Below are positions 2,231 to 19,799 of a stretch of 26,868 bases of DNA, piece after piece. The notes under the pieces are model-generated. The model did no database searches and was not told where the DNA came from. It saw nothing but the letters and a program-made list of their open reading frames with translations. The DNA comes from a virus: IMG/VR virus record IMGVR_UViG_3300045922_000788, positions 1 to 26,868 of that record. One strand, written 5' to 3'. How positions within the stretch are numbered: the stretch's first letter is position 1; each line of letters opens with the position of its first letter. Made by a program: the position numbers and the translations under genes.

Positions 2231-2247
2231 GGGGGTGCCCTCCTGGG

Positions 2248-3459
2248 CTACGTGTCTAAGATGGAGACGCCGCTGAAGTCCGCGATTGCGGACGGGGCCT
2301 GGGCGGGTCGGGCGTCGTCATCCCGCACCAGGTTGACGCCGCTGCTGATCTTCTCCACCAGCGGCTCCAACAGGTGCCGCCGCTCGCGCGGCAGCAGCTT
2401 CTCGATCTGCGCGGGGCTCTTAAGCTTCCGCACGTAGAGATCGTCATGCGGCACATGCAGCACCGCTTCGGCGGTCGGCACCTCTGCCTCGTCGCGCCAA
2501 CGGCGCGTCGCGCGCTTCGGCACCAACTTGTAGCCAGGCACTTCGGTGCCGCTCTCGGCCAGATGCAGCGCGTGGGCGCGCACGGCCGCCACCCATCCGT
2601 CGATCAGGTCGGCGGCGTTCAGCACCCGCACGATTTGGTCCATCGACAGCGTGGAGGGATCGGCGGGCACGCGGATGTCGGCGCCGTCGAAGTCGGCCGC
2701 CGCTTCCGTCAGCGCGCGCTTCTGAAGCGCCGGGCACACGGCGGAGGCCGGGCAGAACAGGCAATGATCGCCGGCCGCCAGCGGCGCGAAGGGGTCTTCG
2801 GTCGCAACGGCCGCGCGCTTCAGCTCGCCCGCCCAGTCCAGCAAGTCGAGGATGTCGATTTCCTCGCTGCGGATCGGGCCGTCGCGATGCGGCGCGCGGG
2901 GCTGCACGATGGTCAGCACCAGGCGCTCGATGCCGCCGCCCCCGGCGGCGTTCAGCAGCGCGCCAAGGCCGTAGTACCGGAGCTGCGGGTTGCCCCGCGC
3001 TTCGACGGCGTGGCCCTTGCCGTGCTTGTAGTCGAAGACGAAGAGCGTCCGGCGGGACGGCGAGATCACGCAGGCATCGTTGGTGCCGAACATGCCGGGG
3101 TGGACGCTCGACAGGTCAAAGCGCCGCTCGATCAGGAGGTGGTCGCCCTCCTGCATGGCCCCGTTCGGCCCCCGGATGCAGTCGATGAAGACCTGCACCG
3201 CCTCGGCCATCTCCTCGGTGATTTCCCAGGGCTGGCCGTTCACCGTTTCGGTCTGCCCGATGAAGCGCCATGGATTCTGGCGCTCCCGCAGGCATCGCTC
3301 CGCAAGCTGATGCGCGGCCGTGCCCTCGTCGGCGTAGACAGAGGAGCGGGACGGGATGCCCTCGCTCATGCGGATGGAGGCGGGGCACGCCATCCAGCGG
3401 TGGGCACTCGACGCGCCCAGCGTCGCGTGAGCGCGGGCGCTGTGCGCGTCGGCGGCCAC
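2248..3459 (-). CDS. DUF2800 PD-(D/E)XK nuclease with likely Fe-S cysteine set
   Basis: The preferred start is GTG 3459, two bases after the TGA of the preceding tiny ORF. It gives a 403-residue protein whose N-terminus (LGASSAHRWMACPASIRMSEG region, residues 14-34) is typical of DUF2800. Nuclease motifs follow: GTND at 125-128, FDYK at 142-145 and QLRYY at 159-163, the order of a PD-(D/E)XK/RecB-Cas4 fold. Cys25 together with Cys233, Cys236 and Cys242 reproduces the one-plus-three cysteine arrangement that holds a 4Fe-4S cluster in Cas4 and AddB. The protein would process DNA ends or branched intermediates beside the SSB and helicase of the same operon. The exact substrate is unknown. A longer reading back to 3657 is open but overlaps two small ORFs. 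Confidence 0.85.
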   Translation of the reverse strand: MAADAHSARAHATLGASSAHRWMACPASIRMSEGIPSRSSVYADEGTAAHQLAERCLRERQNPWRFIGQTETVNGQPWEITEEMAEAVQVFIDCIRGPNGAMQEGDHLLIERRFDLSSVHPGMFGTNDACVISPSRRTLFVFDYKHGKGHAVEARGNPQLRYYGLGALLNAAGGGGIERLVLTIVQPRAPHRDGPIRSEEIDILDLLDWAGELKRAAVATEDPFAPLAAGDHCLFCPASAVCPALQKRALTEAAADFDGADIRVPADPSTLSMDQIVRVLNAADLIDGWVAAVRAHALHLAESGTEVPGYKLVPKRATRRWRDEAEVPTAEAVLHVPHDDLYVRKLKSPAQIEKLLPRERRHLLEPLVEKISSGVNLVRDDDARPAQAPSAIADFSGVSILDT

Positions 3460-3461
3460 AG

Positions 3462-3554
3462 TCAGTACGCCTTCCCGCCGGCCGCCGCGCGCACCTCGAG
3501 GCGGTGGTCGGGGCGCTGGGCGTTTAACGCCAGCTTCTCGGCGGACGGGCTCAC
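3462..3554 (-). CDS. Tiny ORF, 30 aa, coupled to neighbours
   Basis: GTG 3554 overlaps the previous tiny ORF's TGA (GTGA), and its own TGA lies two bases before the DUF2800 GTG start. The 30-residue product is basic and polar (SAEKLALNAQRPDHRLEV in the middle) and shows no recognisable domain. Its only support is position: it fills the gap between genes exactly, with the same overlap style as the rest of the operon. It may be a real micro-protein or merely keep ribosomes moving into the nuclease gene. Confidence 0.35.
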   Translation of the reverse strand: MSPSAEKLALNAQRPDHRLEVRAAAGGKAY

Positions 3555-3646
3555 GCCAGGTCCTCGCCGTCCACAGCCAACGGCACTTCCACCACGGCGA
3601 TGTGCTCGCCGCAATCCGGGTGCCGCAGCACGATCTTCTCCTGCAT
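3551..3646 (-). CDS. Tiny ORF, 31 aa
   Basis: ATG 3646 with GGAG about eleven bases upstream; the stop overlaps the next tiny ORF. The 31-residue product reads MQEKIVLRHPDCGEHIAVVE and ends in an acidic GEDLA. The pattern of alternating hydrophobic residues and the strand-like HIAVVEVPL suggest a small beta hairpin, but no family is recognised. It lies three bases downstream of the 60-aa gene in the same operon. Confidence 0.42.
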   Translation of the reverse strand: MQEKIVLRHPDCGEHIAVVEVPLAVDGEDLA

Positions 3647-3649
3647 GGT

Positions 3650-3832
3650 CTACTCATCTCCTGGGTTGGTGGGGATCACGGAGACGCGCTCCCAGCCGTC
3701 TTCCTGGGTGCCGAAGTCCACGGCGGCTTCGCGCGCGGCGGCCTTCACCGCCTCCGCCTCCGACGCCGCCTGGACGTAGGTTTCGTGACTGCCGTGCTCG
3801 GCGTGCTCGACAGTCACGAGATATTCGCGCAT
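3650..3832 (-). CDS. Small acidic unknown protein, 60 aa
   Basis: ATG 3832, four bases after the stop of the AT-hook protein gene; stop TAG. The 60-residue product begins with a beta strand (REYLVTVEH). An alanine/glutamate helix follows (ASEAEAVKAAAREAAVDF), then a second strand (WERVSVIPTNP). A strand-helix-strand plan with an Ala-Glu helix is common in small phage proteins with a name but no function. The codon use matches its neighbours. I cannot assign a role; its place between DNA-binding and nuclease genes suggests an accessory of that module. Confidence 0.6.
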   Translation of the reverse strand: MREYLVTVEHAEHGSHETYVQAASEAEAVKAAAREAAVDFGTQEDGWERVSVIPTNPGDE

Positions 3833-3836
3833 GGCG

Positions 3837-4655
3837 TCAGGTCAGCGCGTCAGCGCCCGCCGGCTCGCTGACCGGCAGGCCCATCATCGCCGCGCCTTCG
3901 CGGGCGATCTTCGCCAGGCGCGGGTCCGCGTCGTCCGTGATGGCCGACACCTTCTCCGCGCCGCAGCGGTCCAGCAGCGCCTTCGCGACGTTGAATCCGA
4001 AGGTGGGCGCCGGGCCGCTGGCGATGGCCTTCACCACCGACAGCGCGCCGCGCCGGTCGGGCGTCACCGCCGCCATCGGGTTGCCGTCGATGTCCTTCCA
4101 GGCCATCGCGGGGGCGGCCGGCGTGGGCTGCGCGGCCGGCTGGGTCGCGGGGCCGGGCTGCGCGGCGGCTGCGGCCTGCGCCACGGCCGCGCGGGCACGG
4201 GCGATGGCGTCGTTCACCTCCTCGCGGCGCTCCGCCGGCAGCGCCGTCACGAGGTCCGCGTTGGCCTTCACCAGCGCGTCGATGGCCTCGATATCGGCGG
4301 CGTTGTGGACCAGCTCCACCAGCCGCTCCGTGGCCTGCCCGCTGTCGGTGAAGGCACCGCCATCCGGGTGCCCGTCAAAGCGGCGCACCTGCCACGTCAA
4401 GGCCGGCGCGGTCGCCTCGGCGGCCGGGCTGTTCCTGCGGGGGCGGCCGGGGCCGCGCTTGCCGGCCTCGCCGGAGTCGGCCGAAGTCGGCTGTGGCTGG
4501 CCGCTATTATCGACCGGCGGGCACGGCTCGGTGGTGGGGCGCGTCATTTCGCCCTCGGCCGGCGGCATCGGCATCTGCACGGCGAAGGGCCCGGTGCCGA
4601 TCTTACGGAACACTTCGTCCAGGGTGTTGCCCTGGATGGTCAGGGTGATGGTCAC
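3837..4655 (-). CDS. AT-hook-bearing protein of the replication module
   Basis: GTG 4655 with GGAG six bases upstream. The 272-residue product is modular. Residues 1-30 contain two strand-like stretches (TITLTIQGNTLDEVFRKI), followed by a Pro/Ser linker. A KRGPGRPRR motif at about residues 66-74 is a canonical AT-hook (core GRP flanked by basic residues), which binds the minor groove of AT-rich DNA. Then come a helical segment with many Ala and Glu (~105-165), a Pro/Ala/Gln linker (~165-185) and a C-terminal globular part (~185-272). It is encoded between the helicase and the nuclease, so it may tether recombination enzymes to DNA or act in origin recognition. No whole-protein family is recognised. 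Confidence 0.7.
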   Translation of the reverse strand: MTITLTIQGNTLDEVFRKIGTGPFAVQMPMPPAEGEMTRPTTEPCPPVDNSGQPQPTSADSGEAGKRGPGRPRRNSPAAEATAPALTWQVRRFDGHPDGGAFTDSGQATERLVELVHNAADIEAIDALVKANADLVTALPAERREEVNDAIARARAAVAQAAAAAQPGPATQPAAQPTPAAPAMAWKDIDGNPMAAVTPDRRGALSVVKAIASGPAPTFGFNVAKALLDRCGAEKVSAITDDADPRLAKIAREGAAMMGLPVSEPAGADALT

Positions 4656-4666
4656 GTGGATCTCCG

Positions 4667-4744
4667 TCAGAAGGTGGTGGGCTTGGCGATGCCGCGCACC
4701 AGCGGCATGAAGCCTTGCTGAAGCTGCGTGAACGTCTCGGTCAT
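4667..4744 (-). CDS. Tiny ORF, 25 aa
   Basis: ATG 4744 overlaps the helicase TGA as ATGA, and the ORF ends at 4667, twelve bases before the next gene. The product is MTETFTQLQQGFMPLVRGIA followed by five residues. It could be a translated micro-protein or a coupling ORF carrying ribosomes from the helicase gene to the AT-hook gene. The exact overlap is the main evidence; no homology is claimed. Confidence 0.4.
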   Translation of the reverse strand: MTETFTQLQQGFMPLVRGIAKPTTF

Positions 4745-6144
4745 GCGGGTACTGCCTCCTGCTGCTCGATGATCGAAGCGATGTCCCTGCTTTTTCGGAC
4801 CAGGGTGCGGACCACGGCCTCGTCGATGGTGCCGGCGAGGGTGGCGTAGCGGACCAGCACCGGACGGTGCTGATTGATGCGATGCACGCGCATGGCGGCC
4901 TGCGCGTTCTCGGCCGGAACCCAGGAGAGCTCCGCGAAGACGAGGTCGCTGGCGGCCGTGAGCGTCAGCCCCGTGCCCGCTGCCTGGATCTGCCCGATGA
5001 AGACGCGGCACGCGGGGTCGGCCTGGAAGCGGTCCACCGCCTCCTTGCGCTGCGCCTGCGGCGTCCGGCCGTCCACGACGACGGCGCCGAAGGGCCGCAG
5101 GTCTTCCAGCAGGATATTCGTCGTGAGCCGGTGCCAGCCGAAGACCACCAGCTTCTCCGACCCGCCCTCCATCTCGTCGCGCAGCAGCGCGCCCAGCGCC
5201 ATCGCCTTCAGCGCGGCCACGAGACGCCGGAGCCGCGACGTGCTCTCGTCGGATGCCGCTTCCAGCAGCTTCGCCGCCGCTTTGTCCGGGTCGCCGCCGG
5301 CCCGCTCCACCTCGCCCGCGAGATCCCGCAGCCGCGCCATGTCGCCCGGCTCCGCCACGGCCAGCGCCGCAGCCGCCTTCCCGTAGTCCCGCCAGCCCAG
5401 CGCGATTTCGGCCTCGCGGATGGGCGGCAGATCCTTCAGCACCTCCGCCTTCTTCCGCCGGAGCATCACGCGCCGGACGCGCTCGCGAAGCTCCTCCGCA
5501 TGGCGGACGCCGACGATCTTGGTCCGGTTCGTGTTGCCCAGCGGCACTTCGACGCAGTAGCGCCGCCGCCAGGTCCAGTAGGGCATGAGGCGCCCGTCCA
5601 ACATCAGCGCCTCGGGGCCAAAGGCCCGCAGCAGCGGCCACAGCTCGTCGGCGCTGTTCGGCATGGGCGTGCCCGTCAGGCCCCAGGCCCGGGTGCAGGC
5701 CGACAGCAGCCCGCCCGCCTCGTCGAGGTTCGGCCCCAAGACTGATCGAGCACGGGCGGACGTGCGGTTCTTCAGGAAGTGCGCCTCGTCGCAGATCAGC
5801 ACGTCCCAGCGGCACGCCAGCAGGGCGTTCCGCATGGCCGGCAGCTTCGCCCGGTCGTAGCTGACGACGCACGCAACTGGCCCGGTTACAGGCACCTCGC
5901 CCGGCGCCTGCGGCGCCACGATTCGCTGCCCCCCGCAACCCCAACGTGAAAATTCCGCGCGCCACACTTCGATCATTGATGCCGGGGTGAGCACAATTAT
6001 CCGTGAGCACGCGACGCTGGCGGCGGCGCGGATGGCCGTGGGGGTTTTCCCGAGGCCCATTTCGTCCCCCAGCACCGCGCGCTTGCGGGTCGCGAGCCAT
6101 GCGACGCCTTCTCGCTGGTACGGGAACAGCACGGGCGCGGTCAC
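4741..6144 (-). CDS. SNF2/SMARCAL1-type superfamily 2 helicase
   Basis: GTG 6144 overlaps the cro stop as GTGA. The 467-residue product has the complete helicase set: a Q-like YQREGVAWL at 9-17, Walker A GDEMGLGKT at 26-34, motif Ia VLTPASM at 51-57, DEAH at 119-122, motif III LTGTP at 156-160, motif V AAGTGLTLTAA at 388-398 and motif VI QAAMRVHRINQ at 415-425. This is the compact SMARCAL1-like form found in many phage replication modules. Such proteins use ATP to translocate on duplex DNA and anneal or remodel forks. The usual HRIGQ is HRINQ here. It is the second gene of the early operon, so it is expressed early, and probably works with the SSB and DUF2800 nuclease. Confidence 0.93.
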   Translation of the reverse strand: MTAPVLFPYQREGVAWLATRKRAVLGDEMGLGKTPTAIRAAASVACSRIIVLTPASMIEVWRAEFSRWGCGGQRIVAPQAPGEVPVTGPVACVVSYDRAKLPAMRNALLACRWDVLICDEAHFLKNRTSARARSVLGPNLDEAGGLLSACTRAWGLTGTPMPNSADELWPLLRAFGPEALMLDGRLMPYWTWRRRYCVEVPLGNTNRTKIVGVRHAEELRERVRRVMLRRKKAEVLKDLPPIREAEIALGWRDYGKAAAALAVAEPGDMARLRDLAGEVERAGGDPDKAAAKLLEAASDESTSRLRRLVAALKAMALGALLRDEMEGGSEKLVVFGWHRLTTNILLEDLRPFGAVVVDGRTPQAQRKEAVDRFQADPACRVFIGQIQAAGTGLTLTAASDLVFAELSWVPAENAQAAMRVHRINQHRPVLVRYATLAGTIDEAVVRTLVRKSRDIASIIEQQEAVPA

Positions 6145-6359
6145 AGCAGGGTGTCGGCGGAACGCCGGGGCGGCTCGATGAACGAGTCGGCCGTCACCTT
6201 GCCGGCCGTCAGCTCGCGGATTCGGTTCAGCGTGTCCGTCGTCGGCATCCTACGCAAACCGACACAATACCGACGCGCGGTCTCCGGCGTGACGCGGAGC
6301 GCGCGGGCCAAGTCGCTGTAGGTCCACCCCTGCTTCGTCCGCCACTCGTCGAGCGTCAC
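6141..6359 (-). CDS. Cro-like helix-turn-helix regulator
   Basis: I choose GTG 6359 because GGAGG lies six bases upstream of it; a TTG at 6365 abuts that site and is too close. The 72-residue product is one HTH domain: WRTKQGWTYSDLARALRVTP (about residues 6-25) followed by ETARRYCVGLRRMPTTDTLNRI, the turn and recognition helix of the lambda Cro/CI type. It has no other domain, as expected for a Cro. It is the first gene of the leftward replication operon, divergent from the rightward lysogeny genes, and a perfect palindrome covers its leader. It probably represses the opposing promoters and adjusts its own operon. Confidence 0.8.
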   Translation of the reverse strand: MTLDEWRTKQGWTYSDLARALRVTPETARRYCVGLRRMPTTDTLNRIRELTAGKVTADSFIEPPRRSADTLL

Positions 6360-6452
6360 GCCCAACCTCCACCGCTTTGGTGGAATCTGTATGGCGTTGT
6401 TTGTTGAAATCGTCTAGTGCTGATTCGCTGCCCAGGGAAATAGGGGGACCGA
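6360..6452. promoter_or_regulatory. Divergent early/lysogeny promoter region
   Basis: This gap separates the leftward replication operon from the rightward lysogeny genes and is visibly more AT-rich than its surroundings, with GTTGTTTGTTGAAATCGTC near 6396-6414. Divergent promoters are expected here. Matches to -35 and -10 consensus are weak on both strands, so I do not place them exactly. The palindrome at 6368-6384 lies inside. Confidence 0.5.
6368..6384. promoter_or_regulatory. Palindromic operator or leader hairpin over the cro ribosome site
   Basis: TCCACC (6368-6373) and GGTGGA (6379-6384) form a perfect 17-base inverted repeat around GCTTT. On the leftward transcript it abuts and overlaps GGTGGAGG, the ribosome site of the cro-like gene. 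It could be an operator bound by the Cro or CI proteins, or an RNA hairpin that masks the ribosome site, or both. Confidence 0.55.
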
Positions 6453-6683
6453 ATGAGCATCAGGGAGACGGAGGCGGCGTTGTTCTGGACCGCCGCTACC
6501 ACGCTGCGGGAGAGCCGCTGCGTCGCGACACGTGCTGAAGCCTATACGGGATTGGTGGAAGTGGCGCTGACCGGCTCGACGCCCGCCATCCGGGAGCGCG
6601 CCAAGGCGCTGCTCGCCCAGGCCGGGGTCGGCGTCAGGCCGGTTCCGGTGCTGTCCGAAGTGGGGGGAGAGTCGGTCGGGTGA
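6453..6683 (+). CDS. Unknown small protein divergent from cro
   Basis: ATG 6453 with AGGGGG a few bases upstream. The 76-residue product is mainly alpha-helical in appearance: TEAALFWTAATTLRESRC, then TRAEAYTGLVEVAL and a helix ending RAKALLAQAG, followed by a short tail. I do not recognise the family. It is the first rightward gene opposite the cro-like gene and 128 bases before the CI-like repressor. That position in other temperate phages holds small regulators or antirepressors, but nothing in the sequence proves that role here. Confidence 0.6.
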   Translation: MSIRETEAALFWTAATTLRESRCVATRAEAYTGLVEVALTGSTPAIRERAKALLAQAGVGVRPVPVLSEVGGESVG

Positions 6684-6745
6684 GCATCTGGCCAACACCT
6701 GACAACACATTCCCGTGACGAAATGGCTTGACACGCGGCCCGACA

Positions 6746-6774
6746 TTGCGTTCGACGCGCGAACCCTACATAAT
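6746..6774 (+). promoter_or_regulatory. Candidate promoter of the CI-like repressor
   Basis: TTGCGT (6746-6751), a 17-base spacer and CATAAT (6769-6774) form a sigma-70-like promoter 37 bases before the repressor ATG at 6812. The gap 6684-6811 holds no gene. A perfect TTGACA at 6728-6733 is nearby but has no good -10 at the right distance. Confidence 0.4.
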
Positions 6775-6811
6775 CGGCACCTGCCAGACACCGCAGGAAG
6801 TTCCAGCCGCA

Positions 6812-7249
6812 ATGGCCCGCAACAGCCGCTTCGCCAACCCGCCGGCCGCCGTGGCGCCCCCGACTTCGATGGCTCCTCGCGAGATCCGGAAGCAGGAGTT
6901 CGCCCGTGCCCTGCAAGGCTTCATGCTTCAGCGGAACATGAGCCAGGCGGACTTGGCGCGGGCCGCTGGCCTTGGGCGCGACAGCATCAGCAGCTACGTG
7001 AACGGGAGGAACCTGCCGAAGCCGAAGAGCGCGCAGGCCCTCGCGGACGCGCTGGGCGTGACGGTGCCGCAGATCTACCCGGGCGCGGTGGAGCGGGCGG
7101 TGGACGCCGAGATCCCGGCCGTCGAGCTTCGGCAGGTGGCGGGCCATCCAGGGAAGGCGTGGCTGCGGGTGAACCGGGCGGTCAGCTTCTCGACGGCGGC
7201 CAAGATCATCGCGCTGCTGGAAGCGGAGGATGCCTCGGCGGCGGCCTGA
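6812..7249 (+). CDS. CI-like HTH repressor without peptidase domain
   Basis: ATG 6812, preceded by AGGAAG; in-frame codons upstream would run across the promoter. The 145-residue product has a ~25-residue flexible start and a clear HTH_3 domain at ~28-90 (RNMSQADLARAAGLGRDSIS, then SSYVNGRNLPKPKSAQALAD and LGVTVPQIYP). A short C-terminal part includes AWLRVNRAVSFSTAAKIIAL. Lambda CI and LexA carry an S24 Ser-Lys peptidase after the HTH; there is no room for one here. It probably maintains lysogeny by repressing the early promoters. Its stop overlaps the excisionase-like ORF, so repressor, Xis-like protein and integrase form one rightward transcript. Confidence 0.78.
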   Translation: MARNSRFANPPAAVAPPTSMAPREIRKQEFARALQGFMLQRNMSQADLARAAGLGRDSISSYVNGRNLPKPKSAQALADALGVTVPQIYPGAVERAVDAEIPAVELRQVAGHPGKAWLRVNRAVSFSTAAKIIALLEAEDASAAA

Positions 7250-7539
7250 CGCTGCTGACGCAGGCCGAGGTCGCCGGCCTGCTGCGCGTGTCGGAAAAGA
7301 CGGTCCAACGCCTCCGACGCGACGGACAACTGCGCTACGTCCCCGGCCGCCCCGTGCGGATTCCGGCCCAGGAGGTTGAAGCATGGCTCGCCCGAACCGC
7401 GGTCCTCGGCTCCTCGCCAACGAAGCCGGCGTCTACGAAGTCCACTGGACGGAAGGTGGCCGGTCCAAGCGCGTCAGCACGCGCACGGCGGATGCTGCTG
7501 AAGCGGCAGATTTCTTCGCGACGTGGAAGCGGGGCCTAG
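7246..7539 (+). CDS. Excisionase-like MerR/HTH_17 protein overlapping integrase
   Basis: The frame encodes LLTQAEVAGLLRVSEKTVQR, continuing LRRDGQLRYVPGRP and EVEAWLA, a typical HTH_17 excisionase fold with its wing. No ATG starts it. Candidates are CTG 7246, which makes a CTGA overlap with the repressor stop and has GGAGGA 15 bases upstream, or GTG 7159 inside the repressor gene. From 7246 the protein has 97 residues. The HTH part ends where the integrase begins; the remaining ~50 Ser/Lys/Arg-rich residues overlap the integrase frame by 157 bases, so the basic tail may be incidental. Family members set recombination direction by binding attP arms. It may instead be a regulator, as MerR-like HTH proteins also are. 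Confidence 0.55.
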   Translation: MTLLTQAEVAGLLRVSEKTVQRLRRDGQLRYVPGRPVRIPAQEVEAWLARTAVLGSSPTKPASTKSTGRKVAGPSASARARRMLLKRQISSRRGSGA

Positions 7540-8420
7540 AGCGGGAGAAGGCGCAGGCGAGCGCCAGCACCGTGCGCGGGCTGCTCGACGCCTACTTCGC
7601 GGAGCATGTCCACAAGAAGGTCGTCGGCCAGGGCACGGCCGAGATCGCGAAAAAGCACCTTCTCGCCCATTTCGCGGACATGGACCCCGCCGAGATCCAC
7701 CCCTCCGACGTGCGGCGCTACGCGCGGCGCCGGGAGCTGGCGGAGATCGGGCGGCCAGCGAAAGGGCCGACCATCCGCCGCGAGCTGGGCGTGCTGGTGG
7801 CGGCGCTGAACCACGCGGTCGCGGAGAAGCGGCTGAAGCGGACGGACCTGCCCTCGATCCCGCTTCCCGAGCCCAGCCAGCCGCGCGAGGTCTGGCTGAC
7901 GGAGGCGGAGGTAGCGCGGCTGGCGGCGAAGGCGGCCGAGGTGCGCCCGGACGGGCGGCTCTCGCGCATCGAGCGGTTCGTGGCGCTCGCCTACTACACG
8001 GCCGCGCGGAAGCGCGCCCTGGAAGAGTTGGATTGGTCCCAGGTGGATTGGGACACGGGGATGATCCATCTCGAGAAGCCGGGCCGCAGGCGGACGAAGA
8101 AACGCCGCCCCAGCGTGCCGATGCACCCGAAGCTGCGCGAACTGATGGAGCGCGCCTTCGTCGAGCGCGAGAGCAAGTGGGTGCTGGACAACAGCGGGAA
8201 CGTCCGGAAGGCGTTCGCCTCGCTGGTGAAGGCGGCCGGGCTGCCGGCAGAGGTGACGCCGCACGTGATGCGCCACACGGCCGCGACCCACATGCTTCGC
8301 CGAAAGGTGCCGCTGTGGCAGGTCGCCGGGATCCTGGGCGACACCGAGGCGACGGTGCAGAAGACCTACGGGAAGCACGTGCCCGAGGCGCTGAAGGAAG
8401 CGGTGGAGGCGCTGCTGTGA
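7383..8420 (+). CDS. int: Tyrosine-recombinase phage integrase
   Basis: ATG 7383 with AGGAGG seven bases upstream. The 345-residue product has an N-terminal arm-binding part (~1-55, opening with GVYEVHWTEGGRSKRVSTRT), a core-binding SAM-like domain (~60-150) and a catalytic domain from ~170. Visible active-site residues are Arg209 (YTAARKRALEEL), a lysine cluster near 239-240 (RRTKKRRP), His294-x-x-Arg297 (TPHVMRHTAATHML) and nucleophile Tyr329 (QKTYGKHVPE). The second histidine box reads LGD rather than LGH. It joins phage attP to bacterial attB, here most likely a tRNA-Thr(GGT) gene. A tRNA-derived core lies about 375 bases downstream, the normal int-attP arrangement. The gene follows the repressor and Xis-like frames. 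Confidence 0.95.
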   Translation: MARPNRGPRLLANEAGVYEVHWTEGGRSKRVSTRTADAAEAADFFATWKRGLEREKAQASASTVRGLLDAYFAEHVHKKVVGQGTAEIAKKHLLAHFADMDPAEIHPSDVRRYARRRELAEIGRPAKGPTIRRELGVLVAALNHAVAEKRLKRTDLPSIPLPEPSQPREVWLTEAEVARLAAKAAEVRPDGRLSRIERFVALAYYTAARKRALEELDWSQVDWDTGMIHLEKPGRRRTKKRRPSVPMHPKLRELMERAFVERESKWVLDNSGNVRKAFASLVKAAGLPAEVTPHVMRHTAATHMLRRKVPLWQVAGILGDTEATVQKTYGKHVPEALKEAVEALL

Positions 8421-8459
8421 TGCGCGCTACGGTGCAGCCCCGCAACGACGGAGGCGCCC

Positions 8460-8672
8460 GTGCGCCCGCTCTTCCTGCTGCTGCTGGCCCTGGCGGGCTG
8501 CGCTGACCTGGCGCAGCGCGCCGACGCCCTGACCGACGCCCTCATGCCCGCAGCCGGCGGCGTCGCCGCCGCGTCGCAGATCGTCTACGGCGGGCGCCCC
8601 TATATCGCCACCGATCAGCCCCGGCCCGTGACCTGCATCCCTGTCGGGAACGGGGCGTATCGCTGCCAGTGA
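8460..8672 (+). CDS. Small lipoprotein downstream of integrase
   Basis: GTG 8460 with GGAGG five bases upstream. The 70-residue product starts with a charged residue and a hydrophobic stretch (MRPLFLLLLALAGCADLA). It holds a lipobox LAGC, so Cys14 would become the lipidated first residue after signal peptidase II cleavage. The next residue is Ala, so it is not marked for inner-membrane retention and may go to the outer membrane. The mature ~57 residues end with two further cysteines (VTCIPVGNGAYRCQ) able to form a disulphide. It follows the integrase by 39 bases in the lysogeny transcript, so it could be a superinfection-exclusion or lysogenic-conversion lipoprotein. An Rz1-like spanin is an alternative, though no partner Rz gene is seen. 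Confidence 0.72.
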   Translation: MRPLFLLLLALAGCADLAQRADALTDALMPAAGGVAAASQIVYGGRPYIATDQPRPVTCIPVGNGAYRCQ

Positions 8673-8676
8673 TTCC

Positions 8677-8708
8677 GCCCGCCGCCGGGCGTAACGCCCC
8701 GAACGGGC
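8677..8708 (+). terminator. Hairpin cluster ending the lysogeny transcript
   Basis: Immediately after the lipoprotein stop are three overlapping GC hairpins: GCCCG/CGGGC (8677-8681 with 8686-8690), GGGCG-TAA-CGCCC (8687-8699) and GCCC/GGGC (8696-8699 with 8705-8708). No T-run follows. The last segment is almost the same sequence, inverted, as the hairpin at 8904-8920. Confidence 0.45.
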
Positions 8709-8715
8709 TGTTGGC

Positions 8716-8734
8716 TGTCCAGCAATGTCCAGCA
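8716..8734. repeat. Tandem 9-mers in the attP arm
   Basis: TGTCCAGCA occurs twice, at 8716-8724 and 8726-8734, a ten-base period that places both copies on the same face of the helix. The related inverted form TGTTGGAC lies at 8771-8778. Sited between the integrase and the core, these are candidate arm-type integrase or excisionase binding sites. Confidence 0.5.
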
Positions 8735-8783
8735 CGGCCGCAAGTAACGCATTGATTTGACTGTCGGCCATGTTGGACGACAG

Positions 8784-8880
8784 CGGCCAACACTATCTTG
8801 GTAAGGGAGAGGTCGAGAGTTCAATCCTCTCCAGCAGCACCATTTTCCCTTTGAATTACTTGGTGTAGGGCGGCCGACAC
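8784..8880. repeat. Decamer direct repeat flanking the attP core
   Basis: CGGCCAACAC (8784-8793) lies just before the core and CGGCCGACAC (8871-8880) after it, matching at nine of ten positions in the same orientation. They sit 3 and 28 bases from the tRNA-derived core and may be further recombinase or accessory-protein sites. Confidence 0.4.
8797..8842 (+). other. attP core: 3' half of tRNA-Thr(GGT)
   Basis: The sequence folds as the last half of a tRNA. It has anticodon loop TTGGTAA (8798-8804, anticodon GGT), 3' anticodon strand GGGAG (8805-8809) and variable region AGGTC (8810-8814). The T arm is GAGAG-TTCAATC-CTCTC (8815-8831), followed by acceptor strand CAGCAGC, discriminator A and CCA (8840-8842). 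The 5' half (acceptor, D arm, 5' anticodon strand) is absent; upstream bases do not pair as a tRNA. A phage normally carries such a 3' segment so that the host tRNA is restored on integration. Phage genes on both sides make this attP rather than attL or attR. Confidence 0.85.
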
Positions 8881-8903
8881 AGCCAACGGAGGTTGTGCCT
8901 ATT

Positions 8904-8920
8904 ACGCCCCGTTCGGGCGT
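8904..8920 (-). terminator. Hairpin ending the late virion operon
   Basis: ACGCCC (8904-8909) pairs with GGGCGT (8915-8920) around a five-base loop; on the leftward transcript the stem begins at the last base of the TAA stop of the 2138-aa gene. No U-tract is evident. It resembles, in inverted orientation, the segment at 8692-8708. Confidence 0.5.
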
Positions 8921-11900
8921 TATCGCGCCGAGATCCCCCCGCCACCCGACCGGATGCCCCCCGAAGCGCGGATGCCGCCGCCGCCGGCCGCAATCCCGCC
9001 CGTGCCCTGGCTGCCCTGGCTGCCCTGGCTGCCCTGGCTGCCCGGGGTGCGCGGCCGGACGCTGCGCTCGCCCACCACCGCCGTCGCCAGCTCGTCGCCG
9101 GCTCCCCGCGAGGTCGCAAACATGACGCCGATGCCGTAGGCGGCCTGAAGCCCGGCACCGCCCGGCGCCATCGCCGCAACGGCGGAGACGGCTGGGGCGA
9201 GCACGGTCGCATGGAAGGCGCGAACGGCGGCGTGCTCGGCGTTGTTCGTGTTCGGGCTGTTCGGCCCGATCGGCTGCGGCACCAGCCCCAGCGTCATCTT
9301 CCCGATGTTCGTCATGTAGTGCGCGAGGTACGGGCCGGTCAGCACCGACGACGGATCGCGCTCGTACTTTGCCGCCGACACGAGGTTGACGATGGGCGAG
9401 AGGTTCCCGAAGACCCCGGTGCGGTCAAGGTTCAGGATGGTCTTCACCCAGGAATCGCGCTCGCTGTTCTGGTGCCAGTTGAACAGGGCTTCGCGCGCCT
9501 GGCTGACGCCGAATTGCGCCGAGGCCAGGGCGAAGTAGCCCATCAGCGGACCCAGCAGCCGCGCGCGGTCCTGAAGCGTGTAGCCGCTTCCCGTCAGGCC
9601 CTCGGCGCCTTCCTTTAGGCTCCGCAGCAGCACGTTGCGCGTGAACGCGAACATGAAGCTGGTGATGCCGTAGGCCATGCGGCCGACGTGGTGGCTGGCG
9701 AGGGCCGGCTTGTCCACCGCCTCGGGGTTCTGGATCGACTCGTTCACGAAGCGCCGGATGGCGGTGCGGTAGCTCGTCGCCTCGGGGCCTTCGTCCAGCA
9801 GGTCCGTAAGCCGGGGCGTGCCGCCGTTCCGCTTCAGCCAGGCCGACAGGGCTCGGGCCTCTCCTTCGTCCATGCCCAGCTCGGCCAGCAGGCGGCGCGC
9901 GCTCGCCTGGGTGGGGGAGCCCGCCGCGACTTCATCGGCAAGCTGCCGCACCCAGGTCTGCCCCACCTTCACTGCGGCGATGCGCTGCGCGTTGGTGATC
10001 TCGTGCATCCCGGTGACGCGGAACATGCCGCCGACGAGGGCGCGCTGCGCGCGGCTGTTCACCCCGGCGTCGAAGACCGCCGCCGCGCGCATGTCCGCGA
10101 AGCTGTCGCTGATCGAGCCCAGGATCTCGGCGGCCCGGCGCGCTTCCATCGTGTCGCTGGTCCGCATGATCGCCTTCCAGCTCTCGGCGAAGCCCTCGAC
10201 GCCCCGCCAGAGGTTGCCCGTCCGGCTGCCGATGGTCATGCCTTCAACGAGCGACGACAGCACGGCGCGCGGCAGCACGGCCAGCGGGCCGATGGTCTGG
10301 ATCCAGCCGGTGATGGCGTGGCCGGGGCTCGACGCGGAACCCGTCATCGTGCCCGTGCTGCTCTCGATCGCGCGGCGCAGGAAGCGGAGATCCTGGGCCG
10401 GCACACCCTGCTCAAAAGCGGCCGTCAGCATGTTTTCCAGCTTCTCGCCGTTCGGCCCAAAGCGGCGCACGAACTCCGCCGCCTTGGCGCCGCGCATGAA
10501 GTAGCCGTGTAGCGCCTCGCGCGGGTCCGTCACCATCCAGGCCCGCATGATGTCGTCGGCCTCGGGCGGCAGCACGCGGCCCTTCGTGAACTTCGTCCCG
10601 ACCGGCGTGTGGCCGAACTCCGCCGGTCCGCGCCCGACGCCTGCCAAGCGGTTGAGCCAGTCCTGCGCGGCTTCGCGGGCGTCGGCCGCGTTCAGGCCCA
10701 TGCGCCGGTACAGCTTCCCCGCGTCGGCCAGGAAGCCGTCGCTGTTCGCCAGCGCGCGCTCCGCGTCGTACATGCGCGGGAAGTAGCGGCCCCGCACGTA
10801 GCCGAGATCCAGCCCCGCCTTCTTCAGGTAGTCGTGGAATTCGTCGAGGAGCTTCCGCACCGGGGCGATGCGGGCGGCTTCGTCGGCGGTGCGGGCACGG
10901 GCGGTGCCCGCCAGCAGGTCGCGCAGCCGCGCGTCCGCCGTCGCGTTGGCGGTCCGGCCGATAATGTTGGAGAGGCGGTTGACGTAGGACAGCGCCGTGC
11001 TGTCGGCGGCGGTCTGGTACGTCTCGGTGACGCGGCGCCCGGTGCCCGGGTCCGTCGCCAGCATGTCCGCGATCTGGCCCAGTTCCTTCACGGCCGGGTA
11101 GCGGTCCGCGATGGTCCGCAGCACCGCGCGGTTGCTGGCGGCGAAGTACCGCGTGTAGTCGCCCACGGTGCGCGCGGCGGTGCTGTGCAGCAGCGTGTTC
11201 CGCAGGCTGCGGACGCCCGCCATCAGCGGGTCCAGCAGCAGCCGCTTCGCCAGGGCGGGATCGAAGGGCGTGGAGTAGAAGTACAGCGGGGGCAGGCGCT
11301 CTATACTCGCGGCCCGCGCCTCGGCCTGTTCGGAGGCGCGGATCATCGGGGGATCGGACTTCTTCAGCGGCACTTTGGTGCCGCGGTAGTCCGTCCGCGA
11401 GTTGGGCGCTTCCTCGAAGGTGTAGCGCGTCTCCCGGCCGCGGGCCGTGCGCGTCACCACTTCGCCGCGGATCGGCGGCGCTTCATCCCACGCCTTCGCC
11501 GCGGCCTCGGCCGCAGCGCGCGCCTTATTGCCCTCCTCCGTGGAAGCGTAGAAGCGCGTTTCCGGCCGCTCGCCGCGCGCTTTCTCCGCCGCGCGCAGCC
11601 GCTCGGCCTCGGCGCGCACGGCGGCGACGGATTCCGCCTGCGCCCTCTCCGCAGCGGCCTTCTGCTCGCGCGTCAGGCGCGTCGGCGGGGACGGGTCGCG
11701 CCACGGCACGCCTTTCCTCGCCGGCAGGCTCTTCACACTCTCCCGCGCCGCAATCTCGCCTTTGCTGCGAGCCATGCGCATCGCCGCTTCGCTCGGCTCC
11801 GGCTGTCCCGACTCCGCTCGCACCCGGGCGTCGTCCGCCTGTAGCGCGGCGCGGCGTGCGTCCTCCGCTTCGGTCAGCGCGCGGCGCGCCTCCGCCAGGC

Positions 11901-14900
11901 GCGGCTCGAAAGCGGCTTCCGCCTTCTGGCGCACCGTGCTGAGCATGTCGTCGTAGGACCGGCCGCGGTAGGCGCTGCTCACTTGGTCGGCGGCGATTCG
12001 CTCGTCCACCGCCTTCTGCCCAATGTCGGCCTGTTCGCGCGTCAGCCAGCTTATGGTGTCGCGCGCCTCCTGCATCCGGTACTCGGCTTCCGACACCGGA
12101 TCGCCGGGGCGCGACGGGCCGTCCTCGGCCGCGCGGGCACGGGGCGGTTCGGCTGGCGGCACCTCGCGCAGATCGGGGCGCGGCTCTCCGGCACGGCGAG
12201 CGCGCGGCGTACCCTCGCCGGGCCCGGGGGTGGGCGCCTGCCGCGCGGGCGGCTCCGGCGCACGGGCGGCGTCCTCGGCCGCGACGCGCGCGAAGGCTTC
12301 GTCCACCATATTCCGCGCGTCGTTCAGCAGATCGGCGTAACGGGCGCGGGCGGCCCCCTTCAGCCCGGCGCTCTCCCGCGCGATGTCGTTCACAAAATCG
12401 CGCGCGCCATCCAGATCGCCCTCGTCGAGCACCCTGCGGATGGCGGTCAGCGCCTCGGTCGGCGTCTGGTCGAAGAACACCGTGCGCGCATCGACGTAGG
12501 GGTAGTCGTCGATGAAGCTGTTCGTCTCATTGTCGAATCCGCCCAGCGACACCCGGCTGTAGTCCCGCGGCGGCGCGCTGTCGGCGGCATCCACCAGCGC
12601 TCGCGCCCGCTCCGCCAGCGCACGGTATCGAGCCCCGGCCAGACCGGGGGCGCGGGCACCTTCATCCGCCAGGGCGGCCACGGCATCACGCGCCTCGGCC
12701 GTGTCGCCCGCCTTCAGCATCGCGCGGATCTGGTCCAGCACCTCGGGCGGGGTCATGTCCTCGAAAGCCGCGTTGCGGTTGACCGCCGGGTGGCCCGGCA
12801 CATCCACCTCCTCGCCGGCCACTTCGTCGTAGCGGCGCCCGCCCAGCGTCGCGTCGTCGTAGCCCTCTGCGTCCATCGCGTCGCGCGACCGCCTCGGCCC
12901 GCCCAGCATATCCTCCTGGGCTTGCGCGTCGCGGTCCGCGAACCGCGGCGGCTCCCGGCTCGTCCCGCGCGGGGTCCGCCACCGCTCGCGCTCGCGGAAC
13001 GCGCGCACTTCCGCATCAAGCGTTGCCTGGTCCACTTGCTGTCCTCCGCTGCCGGGTGTGTCGCCCGCAATATCGGAGAACGGCGGAGGATTGTCCACCG
13101 AATTGGCGGAAGGCCGCTCCGGTTCGGTGGAACGCGGCCCCGTCAGGCGCCTCGGCTGGCCGCCTTCACCAAAGCGCGCAGCGCCCGAAGGCGCCCGCGC
13201 CGCAGCGCCGCGCTGTCCAGCACCCGCCGCGTCGGCGCGACCTTCGCCCCCGGGCGCCCCCGCACCCATGCCAGCAGACCCCGCATTGCGCCCCACCTCC
13301 CTGACCGTGAAGCCCTGCCCCGAAGGGTGGACTGCGATTTCAAAAAACTGGTCGGGGCTTTCCTTCTGCCCCTTCGTCAAAATCCAGCGCGCCGCCTGTT
13401 TCTGATCGCCAAAGCGGATGGGGCCGCCCTGATCGGACAGGACGTAGCCCTGCGCGTCCACGCGCCAGCGGCCATCGGCGTCCTGCCCGGCGGGCGTGTT
13501 GGAGGAGCGCGTGTTGCTGTTCCAGTCGCCGCGCTCGCGCGCTCGGCGGGCGGCCTCCTCGTACTGCGCGCGGCGCTGCTGGAAGGCGCGCTCCGCCTCT
13601 TCGGCGGTGGACCAGCGCCGGCCGGGGGCGGGGCCTTCGGGCTGCTTAGGGAGAGGAGAGCGCCCCAAGGCAGATCCGCCGCCCCCGGCCGGGCGGCCTC
13701 CCGGCGCCGCGCCGCCCGGAGGCTGGGTGCGGCTCGTGGCGCCAGGGAAGCGGTCGTTCGGATCGGGCGGCGTCGCGCGGTAGGTCTGGCGCGGCTCGCG
13801 CACCACGGTTTCTGCGGCGCCGCGCGGCTGCTCCGGCGGGCGCGGACCGCGCGACCGCTCCACAACATCCTGGGCGCGCCGCGGCTCGACGGCGTAGGCG
13901 CCCTGGCGCAAATCCCGCTCGCGGACGACGTAGGGCACGCTGCCGGGCTCGAGTTGGCCCGTGCGCGGGTCGTACCGCTGCACCTGCGCGTTGCCGGTCC
14001 CGTCCCGCGACAGCACGCGCACCGGAAAGCCCTGATCCGTCACAACAGGCTGCGGGTTCGGTCCCTCCGGTCGTCCGGCCGGCTGGGTGTCGCGCACGTC
14101 CTCTCCGGCGCGGGCGCGCTGTCGCGCAGCCAGGTCGAAAGCTCCGGCTGCCTGGCGCTGTTCCTGCACCCGGTCCGGGGTCTGCGGGAGGCGCCCTTCC
14201 GGCACCACCATGCGCGGCGGAGGCTCGGCAAGGTTGGGGTTGCCTCCCTCCATCTGCGCGCGGGCACGGGCGATCTCGCCCGGCGTCATGCGGTTGGGCT
14301 GCGGCTCGGTGGGGACCAGCGCGCCGTAGCCCTCGGGCCGCGCGCGGCCGGCGACGCCTTCCGCGACGCCCGGCACGTTGGGGTCGGGCGTGCCGCGCAT
14401 CGGCACGCCGGGGCCTTCGGGAAGCTGCATCACCTCCGGCAGCGGCGCGCGGGCGGGCGGCGCCACGGTGGACGGATCGGCCCCGCCTTCCACGGCCTCG
14501 CGGGCGACGCGCAGATCCTCCGCGGTGACAGAAGGCGCGACCGCAGCGCGCTCGCCCTCGGCGGCCCGGCGCTCGCCCAGCCGCGCGGCAAGCTGCGCGA
14601 GGCGCGGATCGTCCGGCGCGGTGATGCCGTTCGCGCGGGCGGCGGCCTGCACGTCGGGGTCGCCCCACACGGAGGCCACCTCCTCGGGCGTGATGGTGTC
14701 CAGGCGGATCGTGCTGGGGTGGACGCCGCGCCGGCCGGCGAGAGCGACGATCAGCGAGGCCAGCACCGCGCCCGCCACGTTGCCGCCGAGGTTCGCGGCG
14801 AAGCCGGCCGTCTCGCCCCCGCCCGCTTCCTGCACGGCGCCCTGCGCCGCGCCGCCCACGGCGCCCGCGAAGGCGTCGATGCCGGGGTTGTTCGCCAAGG

Positions 14901-15336
14901 CGCCCGCGACCGTTTGCCCCGGCGTGGCGATCGCGCCCGGCCGGACGGGGTTGAACCCCTGCGCGACGCGCGCGGCGCCGTAGGGCAGCGCCATGCCCAC
15001 CGCGCCCTGCGACGCCAAGCCGACGACGCGCTCGGTGGCGGTTTCCGGACGCGGCAGGCCGAGGCTGTCGGCCAAGGAGGAGCCGAGGCCATAGCGGAAC
15101 GGCTCGGGAATGACGGTGCGCCCGGCCACGTCGTTCACGACGGCCGAGGGCGCGTTGAGGATCGCCGCCACGGGATCGCGCAGCGAGTCCACGACGCCCT
15201 CGATCACATGGCGCCCCGTGAGCCCAAGCTGCCGGCGGAGGATCTGCTGCGGGGGACGGGCGCGCGGCGCGCCCGGCACGATCCAGTCGTCCTCCTCCTC
15301 CGGCACCGTCCAGTCGTCGTCCCGCGTGCCGCTCAC
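8920..15336 (-). CDS. Giant internal virion/ejection-type protein, 2138 aa
   Basis: GTG 15336 overlaps the upstream stop as GTGA; stop TAA. Its place, last in a podovirus late operon after smaller internal virion proteins, is that of T7 gp16. Acidic residues 1-20 precede QQILRRQLGLTGRHVIEGVV (30-49), a start I associate with large phage ejection proteins. Gly/Ala-rich hydrophobic stretches near 105-200 could insert in membranes. A long Pro/Arg-rich, low-complexity part (~200-600) follows, then a compact domain at 621-681 (WRVDAQGYVLSDQGGPIRF, HPSGQGFTVRE). Two copies of a 61-residue repeat lie at 858-918 and 954-1014, and coiled coil at ~1085-1285. A large conserved-looking helical region (~1345-2080) recalls the C-terminal regions of large polyvalent proteins. 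A Gly-rich tail carries GSQ repeats. No lytic transglycosylase motif was recognised. Probably ejected into the host with the DNA. Confidence 0.8.
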   Translation of the reverse strand: MSGTRDDDWTVPEEEDDWIVPGAPRARPPQQILRRQLGLTGRHVIEGVVDSLRDPVAAILNAPSAVVNDVAGRTVIPEPFRYGLGSSLADSLGLPRPETATERVVGLASQGAVGMALPYGAARVAQGFNPVRPGAIATPGQTVAGALANNPGIDAFAGAVGGAAQGAVQEAGGGETAGFAANLGGNVAGAVLASLIVALAGRRGVHPSTIRLDTITPEEVASVWGDPDVQAAARANGITAPDDPRLAQLAARLGERRAAEGERAAVAPSVTAEDLRVAREAVEGGADPSTVAPPARAPLPEVMQLPEGPGVPMRGTPDPNVPGVAEGVAGRARPEGYGALVPTEPQPNRMTPGEIARARAQMEGGNPNLAEPPPRMVVPEGRLPQTPDRVQEQRQAAGAFDLAARQRARAGEDVRDTQPAGRPEGPNPQPVVTDQGFPVRVLSRDGTGNAQVQRYDPRTGQLEPGSVPYVVRERDLRQGAYAVEPRRAQDVVERSRGPRPPEQPRGAAETVVREPRQTYRATPPDPNDRFPGATSRTQPPGGAAPGGRPAGGGGSALGRSPLPKQPEGPAPGRRWSTAEEAERAFQQRRAQYEEAARRARERGDWNSNTRSSNTPAGQDADGRWRVDAQGYVLSDQGGPIRFGDQKQAARWILTKGQKESPDQFFEIAVHPSGQGFTVREVGRNAGSAGMGAGAPGGEGRADAAGAGQRGAAARAPSGAARFGEGGQPRRLTGPRSTEPERPSANSVDNPPPFSDIAGDTPGSGGQQVDQATLDAEVRAFRERERWRTPRGTSREPPRFADRDAQAQEDMLGGPRRSRDAMDAEGYDDATLGGRRYDEVAGEEVDVPGHPAVNRNAAFEDMTPPEVLDQIRAMLKAGDTAEARDAVAALADEGARAPGLAGARYRALAERARALVDAADSAPPRDYSRVSLGGFDNETNSFIDDYPYVDARTVFFDQTPTEALTAIRRVLDEGDLDGARDFVNDIARESAGLKGAARARYADLLNDARNMVDEAFARVAAEDAARAPEPPARQAPTPGPGEGTPRARRAGEPRPDLREVPPAEPPRARAAEDGPSRPGDPVSEAEYRMQEARDTISWLTREQADIGQKAVDERIAADQVSSAYRGRSYDDMLSTVRQKAEAAFEPRLAEARRALTEAEDARRAALQADDARVRAESGQPEPSEAAMRMARSKGEIAARESVKSLPARKGVPWRDPSPPTRLTREQKAAAERAQAESVAAVRAEAERLRAAEKARGERPETRFYASTEEGNKARAAAEAAAKAWDEAPPIRGEVVTRTARGRETRYTFEEAPNSRTDYRGTKVPLKKSDPPMIRASEQAEARAASIERLPPLYFYSTPFDPALAKRLLLDPLMAGVRSLRNTLLHSTAARTVGDYTRYFAASNRAVLRTIADRYPAVKELGQIADMLATDPGTGRRVTETYQTAADSTALSYVNRLSNIIGRTANATADARLRDLLAGTARARTADEAARIAPVRKLLDEFHDYLKKAGLDLGYVRGRYFPRMYDAERALANSDGFLADAGKLYRRMGLNAADAREAAQDWLNRLAGVGRGPAEFGHTPVGTKFTKGRVLPPEADDIMRAWMVTDPREALHGYFMRGAKAAEFVRRFGPNGEKLENMLTAAFEQGVPAQDLRFLRRAIESSTGTMTGSASSPGHAITGWIQTIGPLAVLPRAVLSSLVEGMTIGSRTGNLWRGVEGFAESWKAIMRTSDTMEARRAAEILGSISDSFADMRAAAVFDAGVNSRAQRALVGGMFRVTGMHEITNAQRIAAVKVGQTWVRQLADEVAAGSPTQASARRLLAELGMDEGEARALSAWLKRNGGTPRLTDLLDEGPEATSYRTAIRRFVNESIQNPEAVDKPALASHHVGRMAYGITSFMFAFTRNVLLRSLKEGAEGLTGSGYTLQDRARLLGPLMGYFALASAQFGVSQAREALFNWHQNSERDSWVKTILNLDRTGVFGNLSPIVNLVSAAKYERDPSSVLTGPYLAHYMTNIGKMTLGLVPQPIGPNSPNTNNAEHAAVRAFHATVLAPAVSAVAAMAPGGAGLQAAYGIGVMFATSRGAGDELATAVVGERSVRPRTPGSQGSQGSQGSQGTGGIAAGGGGIRASGGIRSGGGGISAR
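9004..9042 (-). repeat. GSQ triplet repeat near the C-terminus of the giant protein
   Basis: A nine-base unit (CCCTGGCTG on the plus strand) is repeated four times and encodes four Gly-Ser-Gln triplets at residues 2099-2111. A Gly/Ile/Arg/Ser-rich tail follows. The perfect DNA repetition indicates recent slippage, so copy number may vary between isolates. Confidence 0.85.
12295..12765 (-). repeat. Duplicated 61-residue domain inside the giant protein
   Basis: Residues 858-918 (12583-12765) and 954-1014 (12295-12477) align without gaps. Shared positions include F-x-D-x-T-P, I-R-x-x-L, G-D-x-x-x-A-R-D, A-R-Y and V-D-x-A. Each copy looks like a pair or trio of helices. The 35 residues between them are aromatic and acidic. 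Confidence 0.8.
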
Positions 15337-16496
15337 GACACGGGCCGCCCGTCCGCCGTGAAGAGCGTGCCGTCAGGAGCGCGCCACATGCGGCGGCTGG
15401 GGCTCCACGCGGAGCCGGGCGGGACGTTGGCCGGGCGCGCGGGCACGGTCGGCGCGGTCGGAGCGTCCGGCGACGCGGCGCGCGCCCCGCCCCCTGTTCC
15501 GGGCGCGCCGTACTGGTTGCTGCTGAACGGGTTCCAGCGGTTGTCCGTGCGCGGCGGGTTTTGCGCGTAGAAATCGCGAAGCGCCTGCTGCACCGCGAGC
15601 GGGATGTTGTTGAACGACTCGCCCTGCTGCTGCATCAGCGCCGCGGCGCGGTTCCGCACCCACGCCGCACCCGCGCTGTCGAGCGCGTCGCCGCTGGGGA
15701 GTTGCGCCCCGATCTGCTCGTCAATCGCGCGGATGTCGGCACCATCGACGGCGGGCGGGCGCTGCTGCGCGCCAGGCCGCGCTTCGGCCGCCGCAACCTG
15801 CGGCGCGACGAGGGCGCGACGGCGGCCCTGCTCCTCCGGCGTGCCCTCGCCAGCCACGAAAGGCCCGACCTGCTCCGCCCGCGCCTGGTCGTAGGTCTGC
15901 GGTCGCATGTTGCCCTCGATGCGCCCCTGCCCGTTCGCGCGCGGCGCGAGTGGGCTGTTCGGCGGCACCACGACGACGTTGCCGGGCTGAATCTGCGGCG
16001 CCATACGCCGGTCCCGGCCTTCCTCTTCCAGGCGGGCGAGGTCGCGTGCCGTGCCGGCCTGGATGTCCTGACCCCGGCGGCGCGTCGCGTCCTGGGTGCC
16101 GATCTCATAGCGGCTGCCGCCTTCGGTGTTCCGCCAATTGCCGCCAGCCCCGACGACGATGCGGCCGAGATCGCTCTCGGGCACGCCCTGGGTCGCGGCG
16201 AACACGCCAGCACCGCGCGCGAGCGCGCCGAACGCCTGCGGGTCCGCCAGCACGCCCGCGAAAATCTCCCGCCAGGCGGCGGCCGGGTCCGCGCCGAGGC
16301 CCTGCCGCATCCGGTCCTGCGCCGCCGCGATATCGTCGGCGATCCGTCCCCGCAGCTTCATCTGCTGGTTCAAGTCCGCGACGCGCGCGGCAAGCAGATC
16401 CGCCTCGAGGCCCGGCGCGAAGATGCGGGCGAGGTTGGAGAAGCCCGCCCCGAGAGCGGGGTTCGTGAAGAAAGGGTTGGGTGCGGAGCCGGACAT
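15333..16496 (-). CDS. Virion-associated protein upstream of the ejection protein
   Basis: ATG 16496 shares a base with the upstream stop (TGATG); an open frame back to 16595 lies inside the preceding gene and is not used. The 387-residue product starts MSGSAPNPFFTNPALGAGFS, then has helices with many Ala, Arg and Gln (LEADLLAARVADLNQQMKLR near residues 28-47). Its middle is rich in Gly, Arg and Gln, and its C-terminal half is Pro/Ala-rich and disordered-looking. It resembles no enzyme I know. Its place between the gp14-like proteins and the giant protein corresponds to T7 gp15, so an internal core or ejection role is the natural inference. Its last bases overlap the next start as GTGA. Confidence 0.68.
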   Translation of the reverse strand: MSGSAPNPFFTNPALGAGFSNLARIFAPGLEADLLAARVADLNQQMKLRGRIADDIAAAQDRMRQGLGADPAAAWREIFAGVLADPQAFGALARGAGVFAATQGVPESDLGRIVVGAGGNWRNTEGGSRYEIGTQDATRRRGQDIQAGTARDLARLEEEGRDRRMAPQIQPGNVVVVPPNSPLAPRANGQGRIEGNMRPQTYDQARAEQVGPFVAGEGTPEEQGRRRALVAPQVAAAEARPGAQQRPPAVDGADIRAIDEQIGAQLPSGDALDSAGAAWVRNRAAALMQQQGESFNNIPLAVQQALRDFYAQNPPRTDNRWNPFSSNQYGAPGTGGGARAASPDAPTAPTVPARPANVPPGSAWSPSRRMWRAPDGTLFTADGRPVS

Positions 16497-17931: not shown

Positions 17932-17934
17932 GGG

Positions 17935-19796: not shown

Positions 19797-19799
19797 GGG

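Follow-up and report, generated by a model that had tools for sequence, protein, structure and literature searches.

When a piece of a tRNA gene lies between the integrase and the virion genes of a phage, the question arises whether it is the site at which the phage recombines with its host and, if so, in which state the sequenced molecule was. The DNA analysed here, called the window in what follows, is the whole of IMG/VR record IMGVR_UViG_3300045922_000788 (26,868 nucleotides), and it contains the 3' half of a tRNA-Thr(GGT) in such a position. We consider it very probable that this segment is the attP core of a temperate podovirus-like phage whose Int would recombine with a host tRNA-Thr(GGT), rebuilding the tRNA, and that the sequenced molecule was unintegrated. 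The features on which this reading is based are collected in Table 1.

Table 1. Features around the predicted attachment site (positions in the window)
Feature	Position	Strand	Evidence or remark
Cro/CI-type repressor	6728-7249	+	HTH_3 E 7.9e-13; phrog_8, phrog_4; kept beside int in relatives
Excisionase-like (HTH_17) frame, candidate directionality factor	7249-7539, start codon uncertain	+	TIGR01764 excise E 4.8e-10; PF12728 E 2.2e-13; overlaps int start
Tyrosine integrase, 345 aa, intact	7383-8420	+	Pfam PF00589 E 4e-19; phrog_1 E 1e-50
Inverted pair GTTGGCTGT (8710-8718) / ACAGCCAAC (8879-8887) around the core	8710-8887	.	Candidate arm-type sites
Tandem direct repeat TGTCCAGCA, 2 copies, 10-nt spacing	8716-8734	+	Candidate integrase arm-type sites
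Phage-side core half-site CAACACTATC (family consensus approximately GACAACTGTC), mostly not tRNA-derived	8788-8797	+	Comparison of family attPs
Predicted attP common core, tRNA-Thr(GGT) 3' half, 46 nt	8797-8842	+	46/46 against host tRNA-Thr(GGT) genes
Anticodon loop TTGGTAA, likely 7-bp overlap (strand-exchange) region	8798-8804	+	Start of the tRNA-derived part in family attPs; exchange predicted
Virion-type protein, 2138 aa, end of late operon, right of attP	8920-15336	-	Homologues of its C-terminal part in Mae-Yong1326-1 and further relatives
Podovirus-type major capsid protein (MCP)	21900-22958	-	NF033394 capsid_maj_Podo E 4e-82; phrog_9953
Portal and C-terminal part of large terminase, off window edge	24022-26866	-	phrog_38 terminase E 1e-31; both with homologues in relatives

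The tRNA-derived core

Read from 5' to 3', the core (CTTGGTAAGGGAGAGGTCGAGAGTTCAATCCTCTCCAGCAGCACCA) consists of the last base of the 5' anticodon stem (C), the anticodon loop (TTGGTAA, with the anticodon GGT at 8800-8802), the 3' anticodon stem (GGGAG), the variable loop (AGGTC), a T arm that pairs perfectly (GAGAG, TTCAATC, CTCTC), the 3' acceptor strand (CAGCAGC), the discriminator (A) and CCA. ARAGORN called no tRNA over the whole window, and therefore the 5' half is absent. Among 84,980 species genomes the 46-mer was matched exactly by 24 stretches; in 22 of them it ends at the last base of a complete tRNA-Thr(GGT) called by ARAGORN, and the remaining two are solitary 3' halves terminating islands. 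No IMG/VR contig besides the window holds the exact 46-mer. Immediately before CTTGG the host genes read GAGCACTCC, whereas the window reads AACACTAT, so that identity begins exactly at the first base of the core. The window thus has a fragment identical to a host tRNA and reaching the 3' end of the gene, as in the attP of phages that target tRNA 3' ends, and here, as in the other attPs of the family, phage/host identity starts at the anticodon loop, which is the mark of the anticodon-loop (A) subsite class. The preliminary description of this DNA had placed an attP core made of a tRNA-Thr(GGT) 3' half at these positions, with no 5' half, and it proved exact to the base; the identical segment that it expected in alphaproteobacterial tRNA-Thr(GGT) genes is also there.

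An exact match of this length would be far beyond chance. Genes for tRNAs are frequent points at which assemblies break or merge, and this is what favours the view that the segment is a chimera formed at a tRNA gene or, more generally, a chance or contaminating tRNA fragment. We give this view hardly any weight, since the identity ends precisely at the tRNA boundaries and Microcystis phage Mae-Yong1326-1 (L028, OP028995), an independently assembled isolate genome, has the same tRNA-Thr(GGT) 3' half (22971-23020) beside a homologous giant gene.

The integrase side and the proposed recombination

As the preliminary description had it, the annotation puts the integrase to the left of the core and the virion genes to the right. 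An intact tyrosine integrase lies beside the site, its end 376 nt from the core, and residues R209, K240, H294, R297 and Y329 are conserved in an alignment of six homologues. We also observed that residue 320 (in LGDT) is Asp or Asn in 6/6 aligned family members, a position after LG which is usually His or Trp in tyrosine recombinases. The repressor and the putative excisionase precede the integrase, and two sets of repeats near the core are candidates for arm-type binding of the integrase (Table 1).

Two other observations concern the surroundings of the core. Between int and attP there is a frame of 70 aa (8460-8672, plus strand) with a signal peptide and a lipobox-like LAGC (MRPLFLLLLALAGCADL...); it had no match in Pfam or NCBIfam, and it may encode a lipoprotein that the prophage expresses. 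Palindromic copies of the TAACGCCCCGAACGGGC type are found on both sides of the core (8689-8708 and 8900-8922), and they are possibly terminators for the converging late and int transcripts. In the related locus L049, AACGGGGCG repeats likewise surround the core.

In the mechanism that we propose, the tyrosine integrase, presumably active, would recombine the phage attP with the matching anticodon-loop region of the host tRNA-Thr(GGT) gene, with the exchange taking place in or beside the anticodon loop. The 5' half of the tRNA would stay with the host and the identical 3' half would come from the phage, so that the late-gene junction would hold a functional, rebuilt tRNA-Thr(GGT), and the 3' half that belonged to the host would be pushed to the int-side junction. 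When the 5' half of a Falsiroseomonas gene (L003) was joined in silico to the window core, ARAGORN called a complete tRNA-Thr(GGT); on the predicted attR and attP it called no tRNA. Restoration of a complete tRNA by integration is realised, with tRNA-Ala, in the prophage described below.

Late genes, an integrated relative and the state of the molecule

To the right of the core the late operon occupies the minus strand, with the 2138-aa virion-type protein, an adaptor, the MCP, the portal and the terminase. Among the scanned proteins no host-like gene was recognised over 8.8 kb on one side of the core and 18 kb on the other. Phage genes flank the core on both sides and a complete tRNA is absent, as in a free phage genome. 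Complete tRNA-Thr or host genes in the contig, or the lack of any host tRNA-Thr match, had been named beforehand as outcomes that would speak against this picture, and none of them came out.

When 385 alphaproteobacterial genomes were searched with a profile, one strong relative came out, G793 (E 4e-157), in a contig of 5.46 Mb, with an MCP 62% and an integrase 40% identical to those of the window. In this prophage the late genes and int are in the expected order, with 47.6 kb between the repeats. Its late-gene end (attL), where the homologue of the 2138-aa protein sits, carries a complete tRNA-Ala(GGC) at 2387789-2387864, and the 3' part of this tRNA is one copy of a 49-bp repeat, whose other copy stands alone after int, at 2435409. 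The outer genes belong to the host: cytidylate kinase on one side, and a phosphorylase-superfamily protein, cytochrome c1 and a SpoU methylase on the other. G793 shows the layout of an integrated member of the family. The side of its int-proximal core that faces away from int is host DNA, whereas in the window the phage late operon is found there; because late genes occupy this place, the attP (unintegrated) arrangement is supported for the window.

The layout excludes a single integrated prophage; an excised circle in a lysogen or a tandem prophage would look identical to what we see. The second case, in which the window would be the junction of two prophages in tandem at one tRNA-Thr gene, recreating the order int-core-late in a chromosome, is in our judgement unlikely. 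Islander does list arrays of this kind at tRNA genes, 125 of two or more among its 3919 islands (PMC4383910). However, they are a small minority of islands, the commoner state is the single prophage that the comparison with G793 rules out, and no host-like gene was recognised over the distances given above. We favour a free molecule, which the preliminary description had also proposed, as a non-integrated genome in circular or virion form. The layout upholds the first part of that proposal; the circular or virion form goes beyond the record, which is a linear fragment of 26,868 bases according to its IMG/VR class, in which no end repeats were found, and which amounts to about 55-60% of a relative's genome length.

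Attachment sites of relatives and the probable exchange point

Relatives were collected by scanning IMG/VR with an integrase alignment; the best 80 loci were taken, and tRNA 3' halves within 1 kb after int were searched for with a CCA-based scan. A clear tRNA 3' half was present downstream of int in 19 of these best 80 loci (G003 included), tRNA-Thr(GGT) being the commonest, and the other loci often end early or escape the CCA-based scan. Together with the window, Mae-Yong1326-1, Rhizobium phage RHph_N65 (MN988536) and G008, these loci give 23 attPs, with Thr-GGT, Thr-CGT, Val, Glu, Pro, Met and Arg as isotypes and nearly all placed directly after int. The half is Val-GAC in G003 and Pro-CGG in G008, both directly after int, and Thr-CGT in RHph_N65, on the int side of the late operon end. 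At L071, an integrase relative of 81% identity, an att site is not visible, the contig stopping 3 nt past the match. Single-protein scans with the C-terminus of the giant protein and with the integrase returned zero relatives, whereas the MCP and alignment queries did find them; a search of plasmids with the MCP gave matches of only 26-31%.

The tRNA-derived part of all 23 attPs starts with the anticodon loop or 1-5 bases ahead of it. On the phage side, in a count over 22 attPs (one near-duplicate was omitted, and the rows are related, so that the counts are not independent), A is found at -6 in 19, and T at -4, G at -3 and T at -2 in 16 each; the window follows this consensus save for A at -3. 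These bases are mostly unlike the tRNA's own 5' stem, although four attPs agree with the stem at all five positions. The simplest reading is that two integrase core half-sites, the left one phage-specific and the right one supplied by the tRNA, would surround a 7-bp overlap coinciding with the anticodon loop. The series would then represent one Int family in which the tRNA isotype varies, whereas the probable exchange point and the conserved phage half-site are common to it, and it should be useful for studying how an integrase changes its tRNA target and when a switch to supplying a whole tRNA takes place.

We also considered whether the tRNA 3' half might be a relic or a regulatory element, such as a terminator or a tRNA mimic, at the late/early junction rather than an active attP. 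Mae-Yong1326-1, which keeps the fragment at the late operon end with int 12 kb away, is the case that speaks for it, and it follows from this genome that adjacency to int is not universal. Nevertheless we judge such an origin very improbable: the 46/46 identity to host genes shows zero decay, the isotype varies among relatives whereas the start point, at the anticodon loop, does not, the family has kept the left half-site, and the G793 prophage has exactly such a structure as its attL and attR.

Host prediction and occupied sites

The preliminary description had held that the host target could be predicted from the sequence. This is right for the gene, tRNA-Thr(GGT), and does not extend to a single host, because the identical 46-mer is common to several alphaproteobacterial groups: Roseomonas-group Acetobacteraceae, which contribute most of the matches, Beijerinckiaceae and further Hyphomicrobiales, two sphingomonad MAGs, and Arenibaculum. 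The window has a G+C content of 70.8%, and tetranucleotide similarity to 8-kb host pieces, which are too short for a genus assignment, ranks those of Acetobacteraceae and Arenibaculum highest, above most Beijerinckiaceae and sphingomonad pieces. The predicted host is an alphaproteobacterium, with good confidence at the level of class, and Acetobacteraceae would be the favoured group, though not uniquely so.

No integrated copy of the window phage or of a close relative was found at a host tRNA-Thr(GGT), and none of 397 genomes of the Falsiroseomonas family matched in a search for MCP relatives, which had no positive control, is weak and is not counted against lysogeny. The tRNA-Thr(GGT) of Neoroseomonas nitratireducens and that of Falsiroseomonas bella are occupied by unrelated islands, lying between the complete gene and a lone 3' half, and therefore this gene is a used integration site in the Roseomonas group. 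The island of the former (G014:C11:78867-99128; L055, L056) measures 20 kb and has type I restriction genes, with GGCCAACAC repeats near both ends; that of the latter (G016:C7:271211-310880; L057-L059) measures 40 kb. We had suspected prophages of the window family at the solitary 3' halves of L008 and L014, but these bound unrelated islands with type I restriction genes and their own integrases. For temperate alphaproteobacterial podovirus-like phages, of which there are few isolates, this site defines the target of integration and leads to a host prediction that can be tested.

Comparison with known systems

The type of site described here, a tRNA 3'-half attP with exchange at the anticodon loop, is a standard and well-known class, to which the window adds one more case. 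Islander lists 2083 islands with anticodon-centred sites, and the anticodon-loop subsite is its class A attP (PMC4383910, citing Williams 2002). Phages and islands of this class with a tyrosine integrase share with the window the 3' tRNA half from the anticodon loop, the restored tRNA and the int beside the site, and there is no difference in principle, except that the host group and phage family of the window are little described. In actinobacteriophages, tRNA cores of 42-52 bp rebuild the tRNA, as in Omega, Ximenita and Hestia at tRNA-Thr-CGT, and relatives within one Int family switch tRNA isotypes (PMC10865867). Core length, the logic of reconstruction and the switching of isotypes in one Int family are thus alike, but the phages and hosts are unrelated, the window being podovirus-like and alphaproteobacterial. 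What is added beyond an ordinary site is the comparative series, with the side observations on G009 and on the host of Mae-Yong1326-1 given below.

Closer in gene content are Mae-Yong1326-1 and RHph_N65, which have homologous MCP, portal, terminase, integrase, repressor, SNF2, DUF2800 and ssDNA-binding proteins and a tRNA-Thr 3' half at the late operon end. Their proteins, however, are about 30-49% identical to those of the window; RHph_N65 differs by its Thr-CGT half and by an HNH gene that separates int from the core, Mae-Yong1326-1 by the inversion of its int-repressor-early block. A comparison of 9456-22971 of Mae-Yong1326-1 with 1625-8842 of the window shows that this block runs the other way round with respect to the late operon; one breakpoint falls at the att core, and int is thereby left 12 kb from it.

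Mae-Yong1326-1 was published as a cyanophage, although the genome matches of the exact 46-mer are all alphaproteobacterial, and its best matches were reported to include Magnetospirillum, Roseomonas and Devosia (PMC9503304). Its homologue of a podovirus-type capsid fits poorly with the flexible, 340-nm tail reported for it (PMC9503304). Such comparisons suggest that the phage as sequenced may infect a bacterium from the algal culture, which would make its cyanophage host doubtful.

In tRNA-dependent lysogeny a short core (8-17 bp), unable to rebuild the tRNA, is accompanied by a phage-borne cognate tRNA (Guerrero-Bustamante & Hatfull 2024, PMC10865867). Unlike such phages, the window carries a full 3' half as a 46-nt core and lacks a complete tRNA. 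G009 (L050, IMGVR_UViG_3300035703_000137) resembles them: at 1343-1547 the Int stop is followed by a short copy of the anticodon arm and, about 100 nt downstream, by a complete cognate tRNA-Thr(GGT), the two having CCTTGGTAAGGA in common, with a core of about 12 bp. The closest host tRNA found is 97% identical to that of G009, which, as far as its sequence goes, has the features of the system. The phiLM21-like prophages of Sinorhizobium were reported without tRNA-dependent lysogeny (PMC12429752), and another study of S. meliloti likens a tRNA substitution to it (PMC11476347). It is possible, though we would put it somewhat short of an even chance, that in one alphaproteobacterial phage family most members seen here, the window included, rebuild the tRNA while at least one, G009, is a tRNA-dependent-lysogeny phage, the conserved left half-site being the fixed element for moving between tRNA genes. 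If this were true, G009 would represent tRNA-dependent lysogeny outside the actinobacteriophages, where the system was shown.
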